Positions 42,638 through 54,770 of a stretch of 64,000 nucleotides of DNA are shown in pieces. Origin of the DNA: Phycisphaerales bacterium (GTDB lineage: Bacteria; Planctomycetota; Phycisphaerae; Phycisphaerales; UBA1924). The notes beneath the pieces were generated by a model that saw nothing but the letters and a program-made list of their open reading frames with translations, did no database searches and was not told the origin of the DNA. The number at the start of each line of letters is the position of its first letter. Positions within the stretch are counted from its first letter, which is position 1. The position numbers and the translations under genes were made by a program. The stretch lies in NCBI GenBank assembly GCA_905339235.1, contig CAJPFG010000005.1, positions 62,001 to 126,000 of the forward strand, written 5' to 3'.

Positions 42638-44269
42638 ATGCCCAACCTCTTGCGGGAGGAGTTCGTCGGACTGGTCGAGCGCGAACGCCGTGTTTCGCCC
42701 GATGCGGCGCTGTGCGTCCCGGTTTGTGTGCGACTGCTGGCCGACCAGTTGACCCCCGTGGTCGCGTACCGCCGGCTCGTCGCCGCTGATGAGCGGACGG
42801 CCCCTTCGTTTCTGCTCGAATCCGTCGAAGGCGGCGAGCGGCAGGGCCGGTACTCCATCCTCGGAGCCCAGCCGGTCTTCGAGCAGGTGTGTCGGGCGAA
42901 TGATGCCCGATGGAAAGACCACCGCGAGTACGACCTGATAAGCGATGTGGAGGAGCGTCAGGTCTGCATCGGCCCGCAGGCCGGGTGGCCGGACCCGTTT
43001 GCAACGCTCCGTGCCTGCATGGGGAACATGCGGCTGCTGGTGGTACCGGGGGTACCGTCGTGCTTTCTGGGGGGCTGGGTTGGGTACGCCGCGTACGACA
43101 GCGTGAGGTACACCGAGCCATCGAAACTTCCGTTCTCAAGCGCCCCCGCCGATGATCGCGCGTTGCCGGACCTGCATTTCGGCTTCTACGACGGGGTCGT
43201 GGTCTTCGATCACGTGGCGAAGACGGTGGCGGTGGTGCAGATCGCGATCGTGAAGCCGGGCGATGAAGCCGGATCGGCCTACGCGAGGGTCCAGGGGGCG
43301 ATCGCCGTCCGGATCGCGCAACTCGATCGGCACACCGAGCCGCTCCGCAGCGGGGAGATGACCACCGGCGCGGCCGGCGCGCCGCTGCCCAGCAATCTCA
43401 CCCGAGAGCAGCACGCCGCGATGGTTGTCCGCGCCCAGGAGTACATCCGCGCCGGGGATGTCTTCCAAGTCGTGCTGGGCCAGCGCTTCGAGCGGGAGAG
43501 CACGGCCGATCCGTTCGACGTGTACCGCGCGCTGCGTGCCGTCAACCCCAGCCCCTACATGGTGTACATGCAGTGCGAGGGGTGCATCCTGGTGGCGAGT
43601 TCGCCGGAGATTCTGTGCCGCGTGAAGCATGACGAGCAGGGGCGGTCTGTGGTGACAAACCGGCCGCTCGCGGGGACGCGCCGGCGCGGGAAGACGCCCG
43701 AGGAGGACGCGGCGCTGGAGCGGGAGTTACTCGCGGACGCCAAGGAGCGGGCCGAGCACATCATGCTGGTGGACCTTGGGCGCAACGACGTGGGGCGGGT
43801 GGCCGAGCCGGGGACGATCCGCACGCCGCGGCTCATGGAGATCGAGCGGTACAGCCACGTGATGCACATCAGTTCGACGGTGACGGGGGTGCTGCGCGAG
43901 GGGCTGGACTGCTGGGATGCGCTGCGGGCGGCGCTGCCGGTGGGGACGATCAGCGGCGCGCCCAAAGTTCGCGCGATGCAGATCATCGACGAACTGGAGC
44001 CGGTGCGGCGCGGGCCGTACGGCGGGGGCATGGGGTACGTCGGTCTCGACGGGCAGATGGACATCGCGCTGACGCTCCGCACGATGGTGGTGCCGACGGC
44101 GCTGCGGACCCGCGGCCCGGACGGGCGGGACGTGTGGATGTACCACCTTCAAGCGGCGGGGGGAATTGTCGCGGACTCCAGGGCCGGGGACGAGTACCAG
44201 GAAACGGTCAACAAGGCGGCGGCGCTGGCGAGGGCGATTGACGTGGCGGAGCGGGCGTTTGGGGGGTGA
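42638..44269 (+). CDS. trpE: Anthranilate synthase component I
   Basis: A 543-residue chorismate-utilising enzyme making anthranilate with a glutamine amidotransferase partner (trpG, not in this window). The feedback site for tryptophan is visible as SFLLESVEGGERQGRYSILG (about 52-71). Catalytic-domain motifs include AGDVFQVVLGQRFERE, NPSPYMVYM, RPLAGTRRRG, HIMLVDLGRNDVGRV, VGTISGAPKVRAMQIIDELE and the C-terminal QAAGGIVADSRAGDEYQETVNKAAA. It stands alone rather than in a trp operon. It is convergent with the first ParDE module. Confidence 0.94.
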   Translation: MPNLLREEFVGLVERERRVSPDAALCVPVCVRLLADQLTPVVAYRRLVAADERTAPSFLLESVEGGERQGRYSILGAQPVFEQVCRANDARWKDHREYDLISDVEERQVCIGPQAGWPDPFATLRACMGNMRLLVVPGVPSCFLGGWVGYAAYDSVRYTEPSKLPFSSAPADDRALPDLHFGFYDGVVVFDHVAKTVAVVQIAIVKPGDEAGSAYARVQGAIAVRIAQLDRHTEPLRSGEMTTGAAGAPLPSNLTREQHAAMVVRAQEYIRAGDVFQVVLGQRFERESTADPFDVYRALRAVNPSPYMVYMQCEGCILVASSPEILCRVKHDEQGRSVVTNRPLAGTRRRGKTPEEDAALERELLADAKERAEHIMLVDLGRNDVGRVAEPGTIRTPRLMEIERYSHVMHISSTVTGVLREGLDCWDALRAALPVGTISGAPKVRAMQIIDELEPVRRGPYGGGMGYVGLDGQMDIALTLRTMVVPTALRTRGPDGRDVWMYHLQAAGGIVADSRAGDEYQETVNKAAALARAIDVAERAFGG

Positions 44270-49847: not shown

Positions 49848-51389
49848 ATGGCCGCCAAGAAACCAAAATCCCCTGTGACATCCGCCGGTGGTGATGTCGC
49901 CAAGCCGCGCAAGGCTGGCTCGAAGATGTTTGCGGGCTTCGAGGAGGCCTCGAACTACCTGCGCGCCCGTTTTAACGTCGAGGCTGTTCGTCCATCGCAT
50001 GTGGACTCGGGGACCACGTTCCGGCTGGACCGGATGACCGCGCTGCTGGAGCGGGTGGGGAATCCCCAGTCATCGTTCAAGTCGGTCCATGTTGCAGGGT
50101 CCAAGGGCAAGGGAAGCGTGTGCGAGATGGCCGCGTCGTGCCTGGAGGCGTGCGGGTTCACGACAGGCCTGTACACCAGCCCGCACCTGATCGAGGTCTC
50201 CGAGCGGATTCGGATCAGCCAGCGCCGGATATCGCCGGAGGAGTTCGTAACTCATCTGGGGCGTGCGGCGGCGGCTGCAACGGAGGTGGCCAAGCCGCAC
50301 GGGGAGGCGACGTATTTCGAACTGCTGACGGCCGTCGCGTTCCTGCACTTTGCGGAACAGGCCGTGGATATCGCGATTATTGAGTGCGGCCTGGGGGGTC
50401 GCAACGACGCGACCAACGTGATCGTTCCCGAGGTATCCGCGTTGACCGCTATTCAACTGGAGCACACGCAACTGCTTGGCTCCACGCTCGAGGAGATCGC
50501 GCTCCAGAAGGCGGGCATCCTGAAACCGGGTGTGCAGGCGGTGAGTGTTCCGCAGCCCGCGTCGGTCGCCAAGGTTTTCAAGGACGAGGCGGCCCGGGTG
50601 GGTGCACCGATCGGATTCCTGGGTGATGAGATCGACTATTCGTACCGCTTCGAGTCCACGCCCGACCGCGGCCCGCACACGCGGGTGGTAGTCACCACGA
50701 AGCGCAGCCAGTTCGAACATCTGGCCGTGCCCCTCAAGGGCGAGCATCAGGCGGCGAACTGCGGCTTGGCGCTGGCGATCCTGGACCGGCTGCGCGAGCG
50801 GGGGTTGGAAACTCCGGAGGCGCTCGTGGCCCGGGGCCTGGAGCGAACCCCGGCCAATGGGAGGCTGGAACTGGTGCACTCCCGTCCGCGAGTGCTGGTA
50901 GACGGCGCCCACAACCCCGAGTCGATCCAGGCGCTGGTTCGCGCGGTGGGGGCGCAGGTCCGTTACGACTCGATGGTGTGCGTGTTCGGTTGCGCGGCGG
51001 ACAAGGACATCGCCGGGATGCTGCAGGCCCTTTCGATGGGCGCGGACAAGGTGATCTTCACCCGGGCGAGCGAGAGCACCAGGGCGGCCGACCCCCGGGA
51101 ACTCAACCGCAAGTTCGCGGACCAGTTCGGAAAGGTCGCCCAGACGACCACGACGGTGAAGGATGCGCTGAACCTCGCCGCCCGGGCCGTGACGCGCGAC
51201 GACCTGATTATCGTGACCGGCTCGTTCCTGGTTGCCGGAGAGGCCAAGCGGCTGCTCATGGAGAAGGCCGGCCAGGCCCGGGCCGACGCCACGATCGACC
51301 CGAACCTGCGGGAAGTGAAGCCCTCCGCGATTGCCCCGCGGCCCGGGGACGCCCCTCAATCAAGGTCATCAAACGCCGATGCGCGGTGA
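49848..51389 (+). CDS. folC: Folylpolyglutamate synthase/dihydrofolate synthase
   Basis: A 513-residue Mur-ligase-like enzyme. VHVAGSKGKGSVCEMAAS (about 82-99) is the P-loop; GLYTSPHLIEVSERIRI and IAIIECGLGGRNDATNV follow, then EEIALQKAGILKPGVQAVSVPQ, LVDGAHNPESIQALVRAVG and VFGCAADKDIAGML. It carries an N-terminal extension of about 40 residues and a disordered C-terminal tail. A TACCAT at 49820-49825 is a candidate -10 giving a short leader. The leuS leader begins 6 nt after the stop. Confidence 0.92.
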   Translation: MAAKKPKSPVTSAGGDVAKPRKAGSKMFAGFEEASNYLRARFNVEAVRPSHVDSGTTFRLDRMTALLERVGNPQSSFKSVHVAGSKGKGSVCEMAASCLEACGFTTGLYTSPHLIEVSERIRISQRRISPEEFVTHLGRAAAAATEVAKPHGEATYFELLTAVAFLHFAEQAVDIAIIECGLGGRNDATNVIVPEVSALTAIQLEHTQLLGSTLEEIALQKAGILKPGVQAVSVPQPASVAKVFKDEAARVGAPIGFLGDEIDYSYRFESTPDRGPHTRVVVTTKRSQFEHLAVPLKGEHQAANCGLALAILDRLRERGLETPEALVARGLERTPANGRLELVHSRPRVLVDGAHNPESIQALVRAVGAQVRYDSMVCVFGCAADKDIAGMLQALSMGADKVIFTRASESTRAADPRELNRKFADQFGKVAQTTTTVKDALNLAARAVTRDDLIIVTGSFLVAGEAKRLLMEKAGQARADATIDPNLREVKPSAIAPRPGDAPQSRSSNADAR

Positions 51390-51394
51390 TGACC

Positions 51395-51531
51395 TATAGT
51401 CAGCCCATGAGGTTTGAGGTGCCTCGCTCGCTGCTTCCGGGGACGCGTTCACATACCTGACGCGCGCGAGGTTGTCCATGGTTTCTTCAAGGCCCCGCCC
51501 GCGGGGCCTTGCTTATTTTCAGGGGATGCCG
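51395..51531 (+). promoter_or_regulatory. leuS leader: promoter, 17-codon leader frame and terminator-like hairpin
   Basis: TATAGT (51395-51400) ends 6 nt before ATG 51407, which opens a 17-codon frame MRFEVPRSLLPGTRSHT* (51407-51460) with adjacent Leu codons CTG CTT. Then come AAGGCCCC(GC)/(GC)GGGGCCTT (51489-51510) and TGCTTATTTTC, a textbook intrinsic terminator ending one base before the leuS Shine-Dalgarno sequence. CCTCGC (51422-51427) can pair with GCGAGG (51466-51471) as an alternative fold. This looks like a translation-coupled attenuator; no T-box motif is present. Confidence 0.5.
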
Positions 51532-54500
51532 ATGACCCAACCAGCCCGAGACTCCACGCCGACCCATCGCTATACCGCCGATCTGGCCGGAGAGATCGAG
51601 TTGCGCTGGCAGACCCGGTGGGAGCAGGCCGCGGCGTTCCGGCAGCCGAACCCCGGCGAGCCGGGCTTCGACGCCACCAAGCCCCGGTTCTACTGCCTGG
51701 ACATGTTCCCGTACCCCAGCGGGGCGGGGCTGCACGTGGGCCACCCGGAGGGGTACACGGCAACCGACATAATTTCCCGCTACAAGCGCATGAAGGGCTT
51801 CAATGTGCTGCACCCGATGGGCTGGGATGCCTTTGGCCTTCCGGCCGAGCAGTACGCGATCCAGACGGGGGTTCACCCCGCCATCACCACGCGCGGCGCC
51901 ATCGACAACTTTCGGCGGCAGTTGAAGCGGTTTGGTTTTTCGTACGACTGGTCGCGCGAGTTCGGGACCATCGACGAAGGCTACTACGCGTGGACCCAGT
52001 GGGTCTTCCTGCGCCTGTACAACGCCTGGTTCGACGAGAAGGCGAGGATCGCGCGGCATATCGATGAACTGGTCGCGATGGCTTCGCGCGGCGAGGCGGC
52101 GACGCCGCGCGAATGGGGCAGGATGACCGCCGACGAGCAGCGCGACTTCATCGACTCCAGGCGCCTGGCCTATCGCTCGGAGATGGTGGTGAACTGGTGC
52201 CCCAAGTTGGGAACGGTGCTGGCCAACGACGAGGTGATCGACGGCAGAAGCGAGCGCGGCGGGTATCCCGTTGTGCGAAAGCCGCTCAGGCAGTGGGTCT
52301 TCCGGATCACCGCGTACGCCGACAGGCTTCTGCAGCAACTCGCGGCGGTTGACTGGCCCGAATCGACCAAGGCGATGCAGGCGGAGTGGATCGGGCGCAG
52401 CGAGGGAGCCGAGGTGGATTTCGCGATTCAGCACCCGGAAACCGAGGGCGGGTCGCTGCGGGTCTTTACCACTCGCCCCGACACGCTTTTCGGCGCGACG
52501 TACATGGTCGTGGCGCCCGAACACCCGCTGGTCGCGGCGGTGCTGGCGCATCCCGCGCCGGAGACGGACGTGGCTGCGCTGCGGGCCTACGTCGAGCGGA
52601 CGCGCTCCCGCAGCGACCTCGAGCGGCAGGAGAGCAAGGAAAAAACCGGCGTGTTCACGGGCGTGCACGCGATCAACCCGGGCACCGGTGAGCGCATCCC
52701 GGTGTGGGCCGCGGACTACGTGCTGATCGGCTACGGCACGGGCGCGATCATGGCGGTGCCGGCGCACGACGAGCGGGACTACGAGTTCGCGAAAGCGTTC
52801 GGGCTGGCGATCCGCGACGTGGTATATCCCCGGGCGGTGCTAGCGGTGCGGTATTTCGCGCGGCACGCGTATCCGACGACCGATCCGGGGCCGCACTGGC
52901 GCGACCAGATGGCGGAGTTCATGACGCTGGTGGCGGCGTCGGGCGAGAAGATCGACGACTTCGGGCACTGGCTGGACGTGGCCCTGGCGGCGCCCCATGC
53001 CGGGCCGGACAAGAAGGGCCGGGCCGCGTCGCACGGGGCGTGGCTGGAGACGTTCGACGAACTGGGCTTCACGAGTTTCGCCGACGTGCGTCGGCGGTTC
53101 GAGGAAGCGTCGTACTACGGGCACCACGGGGAGTCGTACGACGGCCCGGGGATCGTGGCGAACTCGACCAACTCGGAAGTGTCGCTGGACGGGATGGAAA
53201 AAGCCGACGCGATCCGCGCGGTCACGGACTGGCTGTCGCGGACGGGGCGCGGGCACGGCAAGGTCACGTTCCGCCTGCGCGACTGGGTATTCTCGCGCCA
53301 GCGCTACTGGGGCGAACCGTTTCCGATCGTCTACGACGGCGCGGGGCGTGCGTACCCGATCGGGGAGGCGCACCTGCCCGTCCGGCTCCCGGAACTCGCG
53401 GATTACGCGCCGGTCGAGAGCGACGATCCCCAGCCGCTGCTGGCGAAGGCCGCGGCGTGGGTAAGCACCACCGCCGGGCAGGCGGGCGTGGACCCGGCGC
53501 TGCTGCCGCCGGACACGCCGGTGCGTCGCGAGACCAACACGATGCCGGGCAGCGCCGGTTCATCGTGGTACGCGATCCGGTATTGCGACCCGGGGAACTC
53601 GCGGCGATTCGCCGGGCGGGAGGCGGAGCGGTATTGGATGGGCCCTTCTTCCGGGGGGGGGGTCGGAGGGGTGGACCTGTACGTTGGCGGGTCTGAGCAC
53701 GCGGTGGGCCACCTGCTGTACGCGCGGTTCTGGCAGAACGTGCTGTTTGACCTGGGAGAGGTGTCAACCCCCGAGCCGTTCCGCCGTCTATTCCACCAGG
53801 GATTGATCACGAGTTTCGCCTACCAAGACCACGAAAAGCACCTTGTTCCCGTGGACGAGGTGGACGAGGCCTCCGAAGGCGAGTTCGTGCGGCGCGCCAC
53901 GGGCGAGCGTGTGACGCAGATCGTGGCCAAGATGTCCAAGAGCCTGAAAAACGTCGTGAATCCCGACGAGGTCATCGCCGAGTTCGGCGCCGACACGTTC
54001 CGGCTGTACGAGATGTACATGGGCCCGCTGGAGGCGAGCAAGCCGTGGAATCCGCGAGACATCACGGGCCTGTACCGGTTTCTGCAGCGCGCGTGGCGGC
54101 TGGGTGCGAACGAGGAAACGGGCGAACTCAAGACAGCGCCGCAGCCCGACGGCAAGATCGAGCGGCTGCTCCACAGGCTCATCTCCAAGGTAAGCGGCGA
54201 TGTGGAACGCCTTTCGTTCAACACTGCGATCGCGGGCATGATCGAGTTCACCAACGCGTGCGTGGCCATCGATAAGGGCTCGGGAGCACTGACTTCGGAT
54301 CAACTGGCTCGCTTCGCGCTGGTGCTGTCGCCCTTCGCGCCCCACCTGGCCGAGGAGTTGTGGTCGCGCCTGGGCCGGTCGGGATTCGCCATGCACCAGC
54401 CGTGGCCCATTTTCGACGGGGCGATGCTGAAGGATGACACCGTCGAGGTTCCGGTGCAGGTGGCGGGAAAAGTCCGCGGGCGCGTGATGATCCCGGCGGG

Positions 54501-54624
54501 CGCGGACGTCAAGACCCACGAGACCATCGCCCTCGCGGACGCGAAGGTGCAGGAGTTCATCGCGGGCAAGCCCGTGAAGAAGATCATCGTCGTGCCGGGG
54601 CGCATGGTGAACGTGGTGGTGTGA
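51532..54624 (+). CDS. leuS: Leucyl-tRNA synthetase with large insertions
   Basis: A 1,030-residue class I synthetase, about 170 longer than E. coli LeuRS. HIGH motif HVGH (68-71) and KMSKS (800-804) are intact; the CP1 editing domain shows TTRPDTLFGATYMVVAPEHPL and GYGTGAIMAVPAHDERDYEFA. An extra segment of roughly 95 residues sits after the editing domain (VYPRAVLAVRYFARHAYPTT to ASYYGHHGESYDGPG), and a shorter one near MASRGEAATPREWGRMTADE. The zinc-domain cysteines of the E. coli type are absent. ATG 51532 is chosen because AGGGGA (51521-51526) is correctly spaced; ATG 51526 overlaps it. Confidence 0.95.
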   Translation: MTQPARDSTPTHRYTADLAGEIELRWQTRWEQAAAFRQPNPGEPGFDATKPRFYCLDMFPYPSGAGLHVGHPEGYTATDIISRYKRMKGFNVLHPMGWDAFGLPAEQYAIQTGVHPAITTRGAIDNFRRQLKRFGFSYDWSREFGTIDEGYYAWTQWVFLRLYNAWFDEKARIARHIDELVAMASRGEAATPREWGRMTADEQRDFIDSRRLAYRSEMVVNWCPKLGTVLANDEVIDGRSERGGYPVVRKPLRQWVFRITAYADRLLQQLAAVDWPESTKAMQAEWIGRSEGAEVDFAIQHPETEGGSLRVFTTRPDTLFGATYMVVAPEHPLVAAVLAHPAPETDVAALRAYVERTRSRSDLERQESKEKTGVFTGVHAINPGTGERIPVWAADYVLIGYGTGAIMAVPAHDERDYEFAKAFGLAIRDVVYPRAVLAVRYFARHAYPTTDPGPHWRDQMAEFMTLVAASGEKIDDFGHWLDVALAAPHAGPDKKGRAASHGAWLETFDELGFTSFADVRRRFEEASYYGHHGESYDGPGIVANSTNSEVSLDGMEKADAIRAVTDWLSRTGRGHGKVTFRLRDWVFSRQRYWGEPFPIVYDGAGRAYPIGEAHLPVRLPELADYAPVESDDPQPLLAKAAAWVSTTAGQAGVDPALLPPDTPVRRETNTMPGSAGSSWYAIRYCDPGNSRRFAGREAERYWMGPSSGGGVGGVDLYVGGSEHAVGHLLYARFWQNVLFDLGEVSTPEPFRRLFHQGLITSFAYQDHEKHLVPVDEVDEASEGEFVRRATGERVTQIVAKMSKSLKNVVNPDEVIAEFGADTFRLYEMYMGPLEASKPWNPRDITGLYRFLQRAWRLGANEETGELKTAPQPDGKIERLLHRLISKVSGDVERLSFNTAIAGMIEFTNACVAIDKGSGALTSDQLARFALVLSPFAPHLAEELWSRLGRSGFAMHQPWPIFDGAMLKDDTVEVPVQVAGKVRGRVMIPAGADVKTHETIALADAKVQEFIAGKPVKKIIVVPGRMVNVVV

Positions 54625-54644
54625 CCACGCGCGGCCGCGAGCAA

Positions 54645-54732
54645 CGGTGGGGGGGGGATTCGAACCCCCGAGGGAGACGAGCCCCCTACCGGATTTCAAG
54701 TCCGGCGCGTTCAACCGCTCTGCCACCCCACC
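54645..54732 (-). tRNA. tRNA-Ser(UGA)
   Basis: An 88-nt gene read on the minus strand. Acceptor GGTGGGG pairs with CCCCACC; D arm GCAGAGCGGTTGAA; anticodon stem CCGGA/TCCGG with loop CTTGAAA, anticodon TGA (54696-54698); a long class II variable arm (GGGGGCTCGTCTCCCTC); T arm GGGGG-TTCGAAT-CCCCC; discriminator G. CCA is not encoded. It sits 38 nt downstream of the diacylglycerol-kinase-like gene on the same strand. Confidence 0.97.
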
Positions 54733-54770
54733 AACCGCCCAAGCGTAGGAAACGCCGGGCGGGTGGTCGC

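Follow-up and report, generated by a model that had tools for sequence, protein, structure and literature searches.

Probable leucine-responsive attenuation of leuS through a leaderless leader peptide in Phycisphaerales

The leucyl-tRNA synthetase gene, leuS, in the 64,000-nucleotide stretch of Phycisphaerales DNA analysed here (hereafter the window) is preceded by a short reading frame and a terminator, which very probably form a ribosome-mediated transcription attenuator that is peptide-coupled and responsive to leucine. Five observations taken together led us to this reading: the layout is conserved, Leu codons and especially CTT are placed in frame, the antiterminator covaries, a promoter proximal to leuS is missing, and peptides matched to the downstream gene are also found before thrS and asnB. 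Peptide-coupled attenuation of leuS had been proposed in the earlier note, and the in-frame Leu codons, the covarying alternative pairing and the missing proximal promoter support the proposal. The features of the locus are listed in Table 1.

Table 1. Features of the leuS leader locus in the window
Feature	Position	Strand	Basis
folC (neighbour 5' of the leader, outside the switch)	49848..51389	+	ORF, 513 aa
-10 box TATAGT	51395..51400	+	sequence; 6 nt 5' of ATG 51407
Leaderless leader-peptide frame MRFEVPRSLLPGTRSHT	51407..51460	+	17 codons, stop 51458-51460
CCTCGC, complementary to GCGAGG 51466-51471 (candidate protector, 1:2)	51422..51427	+	sequence; swap test
Tandem putative control codons CTG CTT (codons 9-10)	51431..51436	+	sequence; comparison of leaders
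Putative antiterminator 5' strand, begins right after the stop codon	51461..51473	+	duplex -17.0 kcal/mol; swap-test covariation
Predicted intrinsic terminator stem-loop, 10 bp, loop 51498-51501	51488..51511	+	hairpin prediction
U-rich tail CTTATTTT, includes TATTTT	51512..51519	+	sequence
Shine-Dalgarno-like AGGGG of leuS	51521..51525	+	sequence
leuS, leucyl-tRNA synthetase (regulated gene)	51532..54624	+	ORF; homologues in 152/163 family genomes

The -10 box, the ATG at 51407, the 17-codon frame, the CTG-CTT pair, the perfect 10-bp hairpin with its tail and the AGGGG, all described previously, are present in the sequence. Only 5 nt separate the end of folC from TATAGT, and leuS is the next gene after folC. 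No recognisable -35 element was found upstream of the leader, and a promoter scan was empty at the locus. The GC-rich, perfect hairpin begins 27 nt after the leader stop codon, and nothing comparable to it appeared in 100 shuffles. The 137-nt region (51395-51531) as a whole was no more structured than its own shuffles (z -0.38). AGGGG is located 6 nt before the ATG of leuS. An Rfam scan of the window at the gathering threshold returned only a tRNA, with no T-box or other Rfam element at the leader, in agreement with the earlier statement that a T-box is missing. A tRNA-Ser(TGA) gene is located on the minus strand at 54644-54733 of the window, 19 nt past the leuS stop codon and convergent with leuS.

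The switch would work as follows. RNA polymerase would begin at the leader ATG or immediately beside it, a start site suggested by the geometry of the box, so that the peptide would be translated leaderless. When charged tRNA-Leu is ample, the ribosome would reach the stop codon and cover the first 8-10 nt beyond it, which belong to the antiterminator 5' strand; the hairpin at 51488-51511 would then form and transcription would stop. When leucine is short, the ribosome would stall 8-9 codons short of the stop codon, at CTG-CTT, and would leave the stop-proximal strand free to pair with the 5' arm and loop of the terminator, and the polymerase would enter leuS. In this scheme we infer the start site, the stalling, the efficiency of termination and the direction of the response.

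The survey covered the upstream regions of 150 leuS genes: the window's own, 137 more from its family, where one genome contributed two, and 12 from other families of the order. The detector looked for a box, a spacing of 4-9 nt, ATG or GTG, a frame of 8-35 codons and a terminator 8-45 nt from the stop codon. It found the leader layout upstream of 29 of the 150 leuS genes, two of these being evident false hits (L058 and L066); about four in five of the leuS genes examined thus have no leader. The two false calls were kept in the residue counts that set the detected leuS leaders against those of thrS and asnB, and were removed from the 29 loci of the promoter test, to which L035 and L075 were added. 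The same detector gave 0 of 150 on reversed leuS regions, 1, 1 and 2 of 150 on Markov shuffles, and 0 of 30 upstream of trpE loci, that of the window included. The trpE gene of the window (about 42740-44242; G000:C5:104740-106242) showed no leader-terminator layout within 700 nt upstream. Over both strands of the whole window, the architecture was convincing only before leuS; two calls on the minus strand were rejected for their weak -10 boxes and for hairpins that are not canonical. Allowing one mismatch, the motif CTCGCTCGCTGCTT occurs at 4 other sites in the window's own genome, and the one whose start was inspected (L052) was an ordinary stretch. A pattern scan of named genomes gave 6 matches, 4 of them in Phycisphaerales/Phycisphaerae; the matches in Muribaculaceae (L159) and Devosia (L161) were set aside, as their flanks show no leader layout.

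A curated set of 28 leaders from 16 genera, which omits L031, L032, L048, L050, L122 and L013, was used for further comparison. These leaders have 14-30 codons (median 17). All 28 carry a TAnnnT-like box 5-8 nt 5' of the start codon, partly through selection, a spacing that would fit a start codon at the transcription start as in Streptomyces lividans, and an intrinsic terminator between the leader ORF and leuS. The gap from stop codon to stem is 22-35 nt, mostly 24-31 nt.

The composition of the frames points to leucine. Leu codons account for 79 of 486 codons (16.3%) in frame, compared with 28 of 458 and 33 of 458 (6-7%) in frames +1 and +2, and in 27 of the 28 curated leaders a Leu codon stands in frame 4-10 codons ahead of the stop codon. 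Of the 79 leader Leu codons, 34 are CTT, compared with 21 of 367 in the adjoining leuS sequences, although tests on these codons are inflated by kinship, since codons of related genomes are not independent. CTT is present in 24 of the 28 leaders and in 14 of the 16 genera, mostly 4-8 codons before the stop codon. Because CTT is frequent in the leaders, rare in leuS and placed near the stop codon, it is the likely control codon, and it would be decoded slowly. The earlier note had held that a hairpin conserved without its Leu codons would indicate a plain folC terminator. The opposite was found, as the 27 leaders with Leu near the stop codon come from a set of 16 genera. Two refinements to that reading are that the key codon is probably CTT and that the layout is not tied to folC.

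Leu is the commonest residue, or jointly so, in only 14 of the 29 leuS leaders, and the peptide sequence is not conserved across leaders, while the Leu codons and the layout are. About half of the leaders also have a conserved TCG ahead of the Leu codons, some 9 codons before the stop codon. Moreover, L092 (G064) retains the motif and the complete layout with no Leu codon at all; the CTT of L101 aligns to CCT there. The conserved TCG and the case of L092 would fit an attenuator that responds to translation in general, or to another ligand, rather than to leucine, for example through nascent-peptide arrest at a motif S-P/L-L or through a CTCGC-binding protein. We regard such sensing as very unlikely. 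L098, L103, L006 and L064 share no common motif, yet have Leu/CTT at a similar distance, and the leaders of thrS and asnB described below have Thr and Asn instead.

The alternative pairing was analyzed by a swap test. A segment around the stop codon, reaching from 8 nt upstream to 18 nt downstream of it, was paired computationally against the antiterminator 3' strand (the terminator 5' arm plus loop) of its own or of another leader. For all 28 leaders, the matched pairings gave -20.5 kcal/mol versus -17.8 kcal/mol for swapped ones, and 0 of 10000 permutations did as well. When each genus was represented by one sequence (n=16), the median p was 0.001. Reversed sequences gave p 0.4-0.7, and ORF segments gave no signal or a slight one, with a median p of 0.02 for one 14-nt ORF segment (-30..-16). 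In a scan of segments, the main pairing signal was located from -10 to +14 around the stop codon. The comparison of leuS leaders for covarying stems that had been proposed earlier thus brought out a covarying pairing between the stop-codon region and the terminator 5' arm. In the window, the predicted pairs are 51461-64/51500-03, 51466-68/51496-98 and 51470-73/51491-94, derived by hand from the duplex in Table 1.

The predicted effect of ribosome position is consistent with the mechanism. When a ribosome was placed in silico at the Leu codon rather than at the stop codon, the terminator arm had more upstream pairing in 24 of 27 leaders, the exceptions being L098, L060 and L069. Genus g6 (L006, L060, L069) has a weak antiterminator or none. 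CCTCGC and GCGAGG, previously put forward as an alternative fold, are indeed complementary; they are not the antiterminator, a role that falls to the pairing of the stop-codon region and the terminator 5' arm. A swap test of the ORF against the post-stop region gave a median p of 0.012, with a related control that was not clean, and the pair may at best be a protector, weakly supported across the group.

The leader and a leuS-proximal box are mutually exclusive. Of the leader-bearing loci, 0 of 29 have a TAnnnT box 4-9 nt upstream of the assigned leuS ATG, versus 73 of 121 others (Fisher p 2e-10), which suggests that leuS relies on the leader promoter where a leader is present. The claim of the earlier note that there is no room for another promoter was, however, too strong, because TATTTT at 51514-51519 in the terminator tail is located 6 nt before an in-frame alternative ATG at 51526 and could be a second, leaderless promoter for it. 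What speaks for a leadered read-through message, without settling the matter, is the Shine-Dalgarno-like AGGGG in front of ATG 51532.

These results also bear on the simplest alternative, in which the hairpin is a plain folC terminator, leuS has a promoter of its own and the short frame arose by chance. The hairpin does lie shortly downstream of folC, the TATTTT of the tail is a possible -10 box, and a box adjoins the leuS ATG in the many relatives just counted. We nevertheless consider this explanation quite improbable. A promoter-like box stands between folC and the hairpin; folC is upstream at only some leader-bearing leuS loci, and the leader also occurs at loci such as L034-L036, L038, L040 and L042, upstream of which folC was not detected. 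Chance would not be expected to produce the Leu/CTT enrichment or the covarying pairing at the stop codon, and an independent promoter is at odds with the mutual exclusion of leader and proximal box.

For the specificity of the attenuator, a covariance model was built from 25 leaders. In the window's own genome only the leuS leader matched, at 94.9 bits, the next match reaching 23.3 bits. Family-wide, all 26 matches above 50 bits were leuS leaders, of which 24 were training members and two were held out (G185 and G142); that of G142 is an additional Leu-rich leuS leader found by the model (MNPSPAQLLLALFDPL). The held-out leaders of G184 and G017 scored 43 and 40 bits, and a training member, L065 (G126), was missing from the stricter family-wide scan. 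A 44-bit match in G015 was rejected as a gene-end terminator. Promoter, ORF and terminator do make up a complete unit, such as a free-standing small RNA or small protein gene with its own terminator would have, leaving leuS uncontrolled. That the unit is kept only before leuS, as judged from the matches in the window's own genome, that its peptide is unconserved apart from the Leu codons and layout, and that all 29 leader-bearing loci have no proximal TAnnnT at leuS make such a gene extremely doubtful, and attenuation of leuS remains the preferred reading.

Most of the weak matches that the model gave in other genomes were terminators at gene ends. Inspection of 17 such stretches gave one new leuS leader, two leaders before thrS and one before asnB, the others having no leader. 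Among the best 30 matches to a thrS query, 12 of 30 loci have Thr-rich leaders with the same layout (Thr 75 of 181 residues). Among the best 30 matches to an asnB query, Asn-rich leaders (Asn 37 of 214 residues) were found at 8 of the 10 closest loci, and none at the 20 more distant homologues. These rates (12/30 and 8/30) are not population rates, because the queries came from leader-bearing loci and the 30 best matches were taken. The thrS leaders, at L236, L238, L241, L243-L248, L250, L258 and L263, are of the leaderless type with terminators (e.g. MTGTTTTTTTDRSG and MTSTRATTTTTNDSTA). At L217 (G096), a Thr-rich leader, MKTRRATLTTTTNSRNG, is located about 320 nt upstream of thrS. The asnB leaders, at L268-L275 and L221, are likewise of the leaderless type with terminators (e.g. 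MTRYCVNTNTINNANRIGGVSGTR); the eight detected ones use AAT 25 times and AAC 12 times (AAU 25/37).

Each residue is concentrated in the leaders of its own gene: Leu is 77 of 501 in the leuS leaders versus 11 of 395 in the thrS and asnB sets, Thr is 75 of 181 in the thrS leaders versus 68 of 715 in the other two sets, and Asn is 37 of 214 in the asnB leaders versus 19 of 682. Swap tests were not significant for thrS (p 0.18) or asnB (p 0.55). Judged from composition, the matching of residue to gene is hard to explain except by attenuation. Another Leu gene, leuA, was unsuitable for comparison, because TIGR00973-type leuA was found in only 1 of 120 family genomes; leucine synthesis in the family may rely on another enzyme type or may be missing.

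Within the window's genus (7 genomes), only the window's genome has an intact leader. L031 (G002) and L032 (G006) keep the promoter and an ORF with MRxxVPRS; neither the tandem Leu codons nor a canonical terminator remains, and the frame has no Leu in G002 and 3 Leu in 45 codons in G006. No leader was found upstream of leuS in G001 and G004. Comparison of these upstream regions indicates that the switch is readily gained and lost. L050 (G038), from another family of the order, has a TCG CCG CTG CTT core and a terminator, with an in-frame TAG separating the frame from the ATG; it could be a decayed leader, a sequence error or a case of read-through.

In the attenuators of the E. coli trp and leu operons, stalling of the ribosome releases a strand located at the leader stop codon or beyond it, and this strand competes with the terminator. 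The leuS leader would use a stop-region strand against the terminator in the same way, whereas the E. coli leaders have a Shine-Dalgarno site and control biosynthesis operons, not leuS. T-box riboswitches similarly subject tRNA synthetase genes to charging-dependent control of termination, but read the uncharged tRNA directly. The closest likeness is leuL2 of Streptomyces lividans TK24, described in part of PMC8079986 as a leaderless, short, Leu-rich peptide (MRAVRLLLSEPR) followed by a hairpin and U run directly before leuS. It belongs to Actinobacteria and its peptide is different; the comparison covered the layout of peptide, hairpin and U run. The classical leuS attenuators predicted in Streptomyces avermitilis and S. 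coelicolor, as the relevant part of PMC1262725 presents them, likewise have a leader ORF with Leu codons, an antiterminator and a terminator, but are from another phylum. The LEU element before leuA in Actinobacteria, from the same part of that paper, shares a leader peptide with a Leu run and differs in its pseudoknot, its gene and its proposed mechanism.

A survey of 2010 (PMC2965389) states that its authors knew of leader-peptide systems demonstrated in Proteobacteria and Actinobacteria only, and adds Firmicutes. PMC4833913 counts leader genes in Planctomycetes and names no leuS in the part concerned. Among open-licence PMC papers, we found no report of such attenuators in Planctomycetes/Phycisphaerales and none of an Asn peptide attenuator before asnB. 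The leuS leader would thus be a known type of attenuator in a new phylum, working like the classical attenuators.

Somewhat more speculatively, we lean towards the view that Phycisphaerales have a general set of leaderless-peptide attenuators that replace T-boxes as amino-acid sensors, with Leu for leuS, Thr for thrS and Asn for asnB. The switch strand would start from the leader stop codon, and the control codons would often end in U (CUU, AAU), heightening the sensitivity of the ribosome to tRNA charging. If leuS is indeed attenuated in this way, leaderless leader peptides would have either originated or spread in a phylum distant from Streptomyces, and transcription would have to be tightly coupled to translation in these bacteria, a point that would bear on the organisation of the planctomycete cell.
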